The translations under genes and the position numbers were made by a program. From NCBI RefSeq assembly GCF_034366625.1, contig NZ_JAXMIH010000023.1, forward strand, positions 620,001 through 684,000: a stretch of 64,000 nt of DNA, written 5' to 3'. Numbering within the stretch: the first letter of the stretch is position 1; the number at the start of each line of letters is the position of its first letter. The DNA comes from Prosthecobacter sp. Lineage in GTDB: Bacteria; Verrucomicrobiota; Verrucomicrobiia; Verrucomicrobiales; Verrucomicrobiaceae. The notes beneath the pieces were generated by a model. The model worked only from the letters and a program-made list of their open reading frames with translations. It did no database searches and was not told the DNA's origin. Of the stretch, positions 1-1,977 are shown piece after piece.

Positions 1-3
1 TCT

Positions 4-202
4 GTGCTAGCACACGGAGGCTGAGTGCCAGCACTGAAGAGTGGCGTGCTAGCACATGGAGGCTGCGTGCCAGCACCGAAGAGCGGCGTGCCAGCACATG
101 GAGGCTGCGTGCCAGCACATGGAGGCTGCGTGCTAGCACATGGAGGCTGTGTGCCAGCACCGAGGATCTGCGTGCTAGCACACGAAGGCTGTGTGCCAGC
201 AC
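4..202. repeat. Tandem array of ten 21-bp units built on the palindrome GTGCYAGCAC
   Basis: Ten copies of the decamer GTGCTAGCAC (perfect palindrome) or GTGCCAGCAC (one central mismatch) start at 4, 25, 46, 67, 88, 109, 130, 151, 172 and 193, exactly 21 bp apart. The 11-bp spacers fall into two classes, one like ATGGAGGCTGC and one like CGAAGAGCGGC. The array probably continues left of the window. A 21-bp period is two helical turns, so the palindromes lie on one DNA face, which would suit cooperative protein binding (operator, iteron or centromere-like site). The period is also seven codons, so one frame stays open through it, but no clear gene structure supports coding. Function unknown. 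Confidence 0.85.
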
Positions 203-476
203 GCCAAGGCGTTTCCTTGGGATGGCCAGACCGTGCTTCAGCGCCGCCGCAGTTCGTCAGGAGCCGGGTCAATGATCCCCTTTAGCCATCGTGCGGTGAG
301 GCGGCACGGCGCAGGCAGTCGGGCCGCTGAAAAATAATATCGGTCCGGCAAGGGCTTGATGCTGAGGAATTTAGGCAATGATTCACCTAAGCACGGTAAG
401 TCGATGGGCAAAATAATCTTGCCGATGATTAGCGAAATGCATAAAACGCACCCATCGCTGGTAATTCCATCCCGCA
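203..476. other. Intergenic region with nothing recognised
   Basis: About 270 bases between the 21-bp array and the FN3-protein gene. I see no convincing open frame, tRNA-like fold or terminator. The stretch from 330 to 450 is more AT-rich than its surroundings and could hold the promoter of the downstream pair, but no clear -35/-10 pair stands out. Confidence 0.5.
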
Positions 477-1232
477 ATGTCAGATCCGCATAATCCTCAC
501 TATGACGACCCAACGGTTTTCTACGATGCCGGGTTTTTCTACGCGGATGGGGTGCCAGACACAACACCACAACTACCAACCAGGAAAAAGCATATGTCAT
601 CCATCAGTGCCGGACTCAGCCGCAAGAACCCCTCGCTACTCATCGCCTTGGCCGATCTCGTGATCCCCAAACTCGCCCCCACCGCACCTGCCACGCCGCC
701 TATCCCGAACATGGCGACCAAGGTGACCGCGCTGACCACGAAACGCGATGCCGCGAAAACCGCGAACGACGCCTACGAATCCGCACGGGCTGGCCTGGTG
801 GCCTTGAAAGCCACGCGTGATTCCGCCGCCGACGCACTGCGTGATGAGCATACCGTCGTCATCAGCGCCGTCGAGTCCGAGGCTCGCGGCGATGCCGCCC
901 TGCTGGGTGCCTCCGGCTATCCGCTGGCTTCGGCGGCGGTGCAGTCCTCCACGCCACCCGCACAGATCCTCAACCTCTCTCTCACGGCAGGCGATGCCGC
1001 CGGCACCCTGGACCTCACCTTCGATCCCGATGGTCTGGCGAAAACGTACGAAGTGCAGATCACCACCACCCATCCCATCGACGGCCCCTGGACGACGTCG
1101 GCGCAGCCGACCACGTCGTATACCAAACTGACCGGCCTGACCAGCGGCCAGCGCGTGTGGACGCGCGTGCGTGCCATCGGCTCCAACGGCCCCGGTGCCT
1201 GGAGCGATCCTGCGACGAAGATTGTGCCGTGA
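477..1232 (+). CDS. Fibronectin type III domain protein with a YDDP-type N-terminal leader
   Basis: A 251-aa protein. The first 40 residues are Asp/Tyr-rich (YDDPTVFYDAGFFYADG), a leader I associate with Verrucomicrobia proteins of this class. An Ala-rich helical stretch (about 75-160) follows, then one C-terminal FN3-like beta sandwich (about 165-251) ending with a GPGAWSDP motif. No signal peptide is visible. The start is uncertain: the ATG at 594 is preceded by AGGA at a good distance and would give a 212-aa protein without the leader, while the ATG at 477 has no clear ribosome site but keeps the leader. The next gene encodes a collagen-like protein, so a structural or surface role, or a phage-tail-like role, is an inference only. 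Confidence 0.7.
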   Translation: MSDPHNPHYDDPTVFYDAGFFYADGVPDTTPQLPTRKKHMSSISAGLSRKNPSLLIALADLVIPKLAPTAPATPPIPNMATKVTALTTKRDAAKTANDAYESARAGLVALKATRDSAADALRDEHTVVISAVESEARGDAALLGASGYPLASAAVQSSTPPAQILNLSLTAGDAAGTLDLTFDPDGLAKTYEVQITTTHPIDGPWTTSAQPTTSYTKLTGLTSGQRVWTRVRAIGSNGPGAWSDPATKIVP

Positions 1233-1248
1233 GTCTCGCTGCGCTCGT

Positions 1249-1383
1249 GTTTGCAGTGGTTGGCCATGGTTGAGGGCGCTACCTGCCCGCAATGCTTCGC
1301 ATAGCGATGCAGGCGGGCGCGCCGTTGACGGTGGTTTTGAAACCACTGCAAACCAGCGTCAACCACTGTCAACCATTGCAAAC
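1249..1383. repeat. Nested inverted repeats between the FN3 and collagen-like genes
   Basis: GTTTGCAGTGGTT at 1249-1261 is repeated in perfect inverted form at 1341-1353. Inside lie GCCCGC (1285-1290) opposed to GCGGGC (1313-1318), and a 7-bp hairpin at 1331-1346. Further CAACCA/TGCAAAC motifs follow directly repeated up to 1383, just before the next gene starts. The mRNA could fold into a long stem here. It may be a regulatory structure or a mini-repeat element of the kind found elsewhere in the window. Confidence 0.75.
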
Positions 1384-1395
1384 TTCCCCCTCTCC

Positions 1396-1977
1396 ATGCC
1401 CTACGATCCCAATCTTCCTCCCAACAACGTGCAGGTCAAAGCGCAGGAACTGCGTGCGCAGTTCAACGGCCTCAAAGACCTCATCGACGCGATCCAGAGC
1501 ATCACCGCTGCGCAGGTCGATGCGGTGACCACCGTCAATCCCGGTGATCCGGCGGTGGTAACGCTGAGCGTGGCTGACGGTACGCTTCATATCAGTTTTC
1601 AAATTCCCCATGGCAATGACGGCAGCACAGGACCGCCGTTCACCAACTTCATCGTCGATGGCGTGACGACGCTCAACCCCGGCGAGCCAGCGACGGCCAG
1701 CGCGAGCTATGACGGTACCGCCGTAAGGCTGAATTTTGCGCTGCCGCGTGGGAGTGACGGCACGAATGGCAGCAACGGCACCAACGGCAGTGATGGCGGG
1801 CAGGGCGCTCCCGGCGAGGTCTCGCTCCAGCAACTCACCGCCGCCATCGCCACCACCAGCAGCAACAGTAACAACGTGGCCACGCTCGGGATGCCGGTGA
1901 GCGATCCACCGACGCAGAGCGAGGTGCAGCAGATCGCGAACAAGATGGATGAGCTGATCGTGATGCTACGGCGGTGA
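1396..1977 (+). CDS. Collagen-like repeat protein
   Basis: A 193-aa protein starting at the ATG at 1396 (MPYDPNLPPNNVQ). Residues 1-45 form a predicted helix with VQVKAQELRAQF. Two similar segments follow, each with a 'TTVNPGDPA / TTLNPGEPA' motif and a short beta-rich block ending in a Gly-Xaa-Xaa-like stretch. The third part has a short collagen-like run (GTNGSNGTNGSDGGQG) and a C-terminal helix. No signal peptide is seen. The architecture resembles phage-tail-fibre or filament modules made of short beta repeats with collagen spacers. It is probably co-transcribed with the FN3 protein upstream, across the inverted-repeat region. Function not known. Confidence 0.75.
   Translation: MPYDPNLPPNNVQVKAQELRAQFNGLKDLIDAIQSITAAQVDAVTTVNPGDPAVVTLSVADGTLHISFQIPHGNDGSTGPPFTNFIVDGVTTLNPGEPATASASYDGTAVRLNFALPRGSDGTNGSNGTNGSDGGQGAPGEVSLQQLTAAIATTSSNSNNVATLGMPVSDPPTQSEVQQIANKMDELIVMLRR

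Follow-up and report, generated by a model that had tools for sequence, protein, structure and literature searches.

Genomic setting of the array

The stretch of DNA considered here (hereafter the window) is 64,000 bp long and corresponds to positions 620,001 to 684,000 of contig C23 of the Prosthecobacter sp. genome (G000), a contig of 716,203 bp of which 620 kb lie to the left of the window. At the left end of the window is a 21-bp tandem array (4..202, with no strand assigned) composed of ten decamers and 11-bp spacers, with a basic period of 21 bp and a higher-order period of 42 bp. An intergenic stretch follows (203..476, plus strand); a search of window positions 1 to 700, which include it, found neither a sigma-70-type promoter nor a terminator consensus. 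The next gene, 275 bp downstream of the array, encodes a fibronectin-III-like (FN3-like) protein of 251 amino acids (477..1232, plus strand), and after it comes a gene for a collagen-like protein (1396..1977, plus strand) with an equivalent in the cassettes C2, C19 and C20 of the same genome. The window array has no XRE gene within 1.8 kb, so the adjacent cognate gene of an XRE-repressor operator array is missing here.

Pfam domains were sought in 20 proteins, 19 of them encoded in the flanks of the array and one, L143, encoded elsewhere. The 19 flanking proteins, a subset of the open frames over about 43 kb, include cation P-type ATPases, multicopper oxidases, an AcrB-type pump, sigma factors and a DnaG-type primase. 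These rpoD-, dnaG-type and copper-handling genes on a 716-kb contig agree with the chromosome-like context given in a preliminary description of this sequence. The same description had likened the array to a plasmid iteron or a partition centromere, a comparison for which no support was obtained: the repeat length falls within the ~17-22 bp typical of iteron direct repeats, but neither an adjacent Rep gene nor the ParB type, nor the cognate adaptor and motor genes of a ParB/ParR partition centromere, were found among the 19 proteins.

Structure and relatives of the window array

The ten decamers, GTGCYAGCAC, start at positions 4, 25, 46, 67, 88, 109, 130, 151, 172 and 193, exactly 21 bp apart as originally reported. 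Both strands together gave 14 matches to this decamer against 0.35 expected, a number reached in none of 100 shuffles. Within the unit the decamer is the conserved block, with variation falling in the spacer (column test, p=0.004). The program TRF described the array as 9.5 copies of 21 bp (76% matches) and, with a better fit, as 4.7 copies of 42 bp (87% matches), which indicates that the spacer classes are partly interleaved. The two interleaved classes described earlier are thus reflected in the 42-bp unit, although their alternation is irregular and a run of one class occupies the middle of the array. The decamers had also been called palindromes, and GTGCTAGCAC is indeed a perfect one, whereas the C-centred decamer is imperfect. 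Contrary to the expectation that the array runs on past the left edge, its first decamer is the one at window position 4, and a leader of about 110 bp lies to its left.

The 6.65-Mb assembly has nine decamer pairs at 21-bp spacing, every one of them within the window array, making this the single GTGCYAGCAC array found in the genome, though it is one member of a wider class. Elsewhere in the genome the leader and array gave one weak 28-bp match, and the many dispersed copies of one unit that characterize REP and BIME elements were not seen. A scan of a collection of species genomes found the decamer pair in 19 mostly unrelated stretches, other phyla included. The pair had no occurrence in viral contigs; a relaxed pattern gave 24 stretches, two of which were inspected. 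Three of the 19 stretches have the leader in common with the window (L020, L024 and L026), of which L024 and L026 match the pair of places detected in G025, a genome of the same genus. Blocks joining leader and array are 81-92% identical among the window, L020 and L024. Ten copies of the unit are present in the window, six in L020, at least eight in L024 (to the contig end) and six in L026. Any match to leader plus array was seen in 5 of 56 relatives, and matches beyond short, chance-like ones were confined to the genome itself and G025; among 384 genomes of the class, with two candidates per genome scored, only the genome itself matched. L020 is on a contig filed under Ramlibacter, and behind its array is a gene homologous to the FN3-like gene of the window; given this homology to the window region and to the gene, it is likely a misbinned contig in a Ramlibacter MAG. 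Two IMG/VR contigs have one and the same perfect 21-bp array, GGGTGCAAGCACCCCGACAGA, with seven copies at L267:3537-3683 and four visible at L272:3-86. It precedes a secreted-looking gene, and FN3, P (see below) and XRE genes are absent from these stretches.

The leader and gene P

The leader comprises the degenerate remains of the divergent promoter and initial codons of a small gene that we call P. Reading it as an open frame held in common with the array was rejected, as the frames are broken in L020 and L024. An intact copy encoding 164 amino acids lies on the minus strand at L086:5163-5654, which is C20:75163-75654 of the same genome. Gene P occurs in 8 of the 56 relatives, and 13 hits, two of them at the same locus, define 12 distinct P loci; an array stands behind the promoter in eight (one with a 41-bp period) and none in four. 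The protein has no match in Pfam or PHROG and was not found in phages, and its structure model (mean pLDDT 59) is too poor for use.

The start codon of P carries ACTGTT-N6-AACAGT, whose core is one mismatch away from the Verrucomicrobia LexA box, TGTTC-N4-GAACA. Four exact LexA boxes are present in the genome, one of them before a gene that appears DinB-like by eye. The P homologue L143 precedes a SRAP gene, and several other P genes adjoin genes that by eye resemble type I restriction genes. The LexA-box-like palindrome and the SRAP neighbour make a link of P to the SOS response plausible.

Arrays upstream of FN3-like genes

Homologues of the FN3-like gene gave 31 matches in 15 of the 56 relatives, and a search on plasmids found none. 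Among the 384 genomes of the class, 32 had hits to the gene. Upstream DNA was examined at 30 loci, of which six had less than 390 bp and could not be judged and three match only from residue 134 onward and have no array upstream; 21 loci were testable. Arrays were detected with a lag test at chosen thresholds of mostly 50-54 of 84 positions. Of the 21 testable homologues, 18 have an array upstream, at a distance of roughly 150-700 bp, whose period is 21 or 22 (42/44), L040 and L066 being weak cases, and no other period among 10-31 was encountered at these 21. The remaining homologues (L053, L047 and L049) have no array above threshold, though L053 has a degenerate-looking one. The Poisson probability of this placement is ~8e-29 under a hand-chosen rate of one array per 150 kb, and since several arrays are homologous, p values of this kind overstate independence. 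Arrays also exist away from FN3 genes (L073, L090, L100 and L128).

The units are mostly unrelated from locus to locus: GTGCYAGCAC-N11 in the window, GCGGGGTCGCATGGAGCTTGT in G010, before an 80%-identical homologue of the window's FN3-like gene, and TTTCCGTAGCCCCGGAAAGAG in G047. A contiguous conserved block was considered as a trait of all arrays and dropped, being significant in 2 of 26 only (combined p=0.23). It is period and position that define the class, and the unit sequence is incidental. One array type, TTTCCGA..TCGGAAA / AAATCCGA..TCGGATTT, recurs in several genomes (L090:15850-16250, L148:232-566 and L246:6810-7014), and short runs of it occur upstream of the arrays in L044, L045, L046 and L057; its loci possibly have one regulator in common. 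Contig C4 of the window's genome starts inside a 21-bp repeat (L073:1-228) and C13 inside a 7-bp microsatellite (L082:1-156). Contig starts of this kind indicate that assemblies break at tandem repeats, so array counts are probably too low.

The period was also assessed in an arbitrary sample of 1,124,046 bp of the genome, an unbiased set that leaves out the window, L029, L030, L075, L086 and L087. Sixteen tandem arrays passed, with basic periods of 21 (five arrays), 22 (one), 42 (one), 7 (four), 8 (two), 9 (one), 54 (one) and 59 bp (one). All seven arrays whose basic period falls between 10 and 53 bp thus have 21, 22 or 42 bp, and two of these seven, the 21-bp arrays L101 and L125, look coding. 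An earlier fixed-window count, on a set of DNA containing stretches picked for their FN3 genes, gave nine regions at lag 21, three at lag 22 and one (lag 14) for lags 10-20 and 23-27 together, the nine including three that are off-class or split (L082, a 7-bp microsatellite; L101, coding; and L071, split). Among other genomes, 200 kb of G015 contained three arrays of 21/41/42 bp and one of 54 bp, and a stretch of G219 and a stretch of G047 had one 21-bp array apiece. G042 and G039 (200 kb) yielded no 21-bp arrays, and 120 kb of G005 no arrays of any kind. A spacing of two helical turns places each unit on the same face of the helix.

Regulator genes beside the arrays

In 8 of the 18 array-bearing loci the array and the FN3 gene are separated by a same-strand gene for a helix-turn-helix (HTH) protein of 88-134 amino acids. 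Eight of nine HTH proteins tested (L146 counted) matched HTH_3 or HTH_31 with E values no higher than 1.2e-4, in some cases at or below the curated cutoff; the protein in the HTH position at L050 had no match in the same test. XRE genes accompany 8 of 9 arrays of 22 bp and 2 of 23 arrays of 21 bp (L045 and the cassette C2 of the window's genome), a difference significant by Fisher's test (p=3.6e-5) on a table counted by hand that excludes C19, which was found through its XRE gene, and the 41-bp array L151, and for which L066 was examined in its gap only. Random places in the genome had an XRE gene nearby in 4 of 400 cases, two of which were the C20 (L086) gene itself.

A profile search of the 56 genomes for this XRE type gave nine strong hits (E<1e-31), each of which had been encountered before beside an array, and the next hit was at 3e-11. 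In these genomes the strong subfamily occurs only beside arrays, although the model was built from these same nine proteins. The weak hits in C2 and C19 constitute a second subfamily. C19 served as a blind test, as it was fetched for its HTH gene alone and proved to have an adjoining 21-bp array. Regulator identity and array similarity were not significantly associated across 11 loci and 55 pairs (Mantel r=0.19, p=0.09), and the idea of their co-evolution was dropped on this result. When the dependence among the 55 pairs is disregarded, a plain rank correlation comes to 0.43 (p=0.001).

Turnover of array sequences

The cassettes C2 and C19 of the window's genome have the same gene order, with an XRE gene, an array, an FN3-type gene and a collagen-like gene. 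Identity between the two is 95% over 660 bp before the array and 86% over 847 bp past it, and their XRE proteins differ by one residue. The C2 array alternates GGCTCGTCCAGTGAATTGATT and TTCTCAGCCAAGGAACTCTCT and the C19 array repeats GACTCGCCCGTGCGGACGACA. The two do not align, and have about 9 of 21 positions in common, roughly GRCTCRYCC, in the same register. Paralogous cassettes with a regulator region so similar and different arrays in one register indicate fast turnover of the array. At L186:6080-6600 the unit switches midway from GGAATGCAATGGCRTCGAACA to GGTCTTGCAAACGCCCCGCAC with the 21-bp register kept. Together these cases suggest that the sequence is re-made while period and place are retained.

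Possible roles of the arrays

We interpret the window array as a non-coding array of helix-phased protein-binding sites that forms part of the control region upstream of an FN3-like/collagen-like cassette, and give this reading a probability of roughly 45%. Several other explanations have been weighed against it. A coding sequence for heptapeptide repeats would account for a period that is a multiple of three and for the frames that stay open through the window array, but it is scarcely credible, because the period of 22 makes a simple coding repeat impossible in some arrays. Furthermore, unit variability across 22 arrays followed no codon phase (combined p=0.97), the number of open frames, 3.9, was near the 3.4 of column-permuted controls, and the frames open in all four of the window, L020, L024 and L026 are two on the minus strand, each array as oriented, and none on the plus strand. 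Neither third-position variability nor selection for an open frame is thus indicated. Structured RNA, with the array transcribed into tandem hairpins that serve as an RNA sponge or act within the cassette's mRNA leader, is very unlikely. Folding of 21 arrays did show more self-complementarity than column-permuted controls (mean z of -0.98 and -1.28 for the two strands), but the excess is similar on both strands, compensatory changes within the unit were sought in 20 arrays and not found (mean z 0.0), and Rfam returned no family at gathering score for six loci, with one chance-level match in window positions 1 to 1300, so that membership in a known structured RNA family is not indicated. Consensus palindromes in 19 arrays did not reach significance overall (combined p 0.08-0.11), and a general claim of palindromy was abandoned, as only the column-permuted fold-based test was positive. 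Capture by the chromosome of a plasmid iteron or partition centromere would be in line with direct repeats of about 20 bp and a small cognate protein that binds them, features that resemble iterons and parC, but the length of the contig and the absence of Rep and ParB types from the 19 flanking proteins leave it next to no credibility.

Two further explanations dispense with a reader of the sequence, and we regard both as unlikely, if far less so than the preceding three. According to one, the arrays are neutral minisatellites, generated by a replication or repair mechanism that favours duplications of 21/22 bp, and drift and are re-amplified without any function. The rapid turnover between the conserved flanks of C2 and C19, the change of unit in constant register at L186 and the arrays that stand apart from FN3 genes are all in keeping with this, but the concentration before one gene family and the association of 22-bp arrays with XRE genes would be unexpected. 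According to the other, the array is a phase-keeping variable spacer, or contingency locus, in which slippage changes the distance between an upstream control site and the promoter by whole double turns and thereby brings about phase variation of a surface-type gene. It is consistent with constraint on period and position but not on the unit sequence, which is free to differ between loci, and with homologous arrays that differ in copy number (one genome per species), but it leaves unexplained the conservation of the decamer inside the window array and the regulator genes that accompany 22-bp arrays.

The DNA-binding reading retains the substance of the preliminary description, which had favoured cooperative protein binding over a coding repeat. 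This appears to be the best fit, considering the lock on 21/22 bp, the non-coding character of the arrays and the XRE genes beside nearly all 22-bp arrays, though the near-identical regulators of C2 and C19 next to different arrays, and the co-evolution that was not found, weigh against it as a simple operator. The site-like conservation of the decamer in the window array, the self-complementarity seen on folding and the placement before 18 of 21 FN3 homologues also speak for the reading; against it stand the non-significant consensus palindromes, the lack of compensatory changes, the conserved block confined to 2 of 26 arrays, the three FN3 homologues with no array above threshold and the lack of an XRE gene close to the window array. 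The two-turn spacing and the small HTH genes at 22-bp arrays point to cooperative binding and control of the cassette. Dimers of an HTH protein would bind one per unit on one face of the DNA and would oligomerize along the array, switching or silencing the cassette. For the 22-bp class the binder would be the neighbouring XRE-type protein, and for the 21-bp class, to which the window array belongs, it would be encoded elsewhere. A protein that reads part of the unit, or mainly its period, would reconcile the C2/C19 pair and the weak correlation with an operator function. Since tandem duplication and loss of units keep the helical phase, an array can rapidly alter in copy number and unit sequence with its geometry unaffected. 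A general system, in which every cassette has an array to itself that is actively re-made at a fast pace, accompanied in the 22-bp class by an XRE regulator of its own, and in which the two-turn period and the place before FN3/collagen-like genes are conserved, is a wider proposal that we consider doubtful.

If the DNA-binding interpretation is right, the arrays represent a widespread and unnamed class of bacterial control DNA that is recognized from its period and place instead of its sequence and would escape motif searches, and mark the FN3/collagen-like cassettes as regulated and possibly switchable loci. The presence of C2 and C19 in one genome makes it directly testable whether the regulator reads the array or its period alone.

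Comparison with known systems

No description of such arrays was found in the portion of the open-access literature on tandem repeats that was searched with Verrucomicrobia, Prosthecobacter, XRE/HTH and helical period, which within that portion agrees with the earlier statement that no described element is known to have this unit. Iterons and ParR-parC systems consist of tandem direct repeats of about 20-22 bp whose sequence varies by system, with a small binder often encoded beside them. The arrays described here have repeats of this length and likewise a system-specific sequence; unlike those systems they are chromosomal, with many different arrays per genome and FN3/collagen-like genes as neighbours, and no Rep, ParB or motor gene is among those tested in the flanks. 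XRE/Cro-type multi-operator regions are similar in that repeated sites of rough dyad symmetry, at helical spacing, adjoin a small HTH gene. Such regions have two or three sites, whereas the arrays have about 6 to 20 units with the period locked at 21/22, near-identical regulators accompany different arrays, and many arrays are without a local regulator. Contingency loci and promoter VNTRs also place tandem repeats of variable copy number before surface-type genes, but the units here are long, measure exactly two helical turns and are replaced between loci. REP and BIME elements resemble the arrays in being intergenic, palindrome-rich and partly tandem. REPs belong to one sequence family that is dispersed in many copies, whereas most arrays here have a unit of their own with few copies elsewhere. 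Viewed as a general system, the arrays would be comparable to centromere satellite DNA, as in both the sequence turns over and the period is kept.
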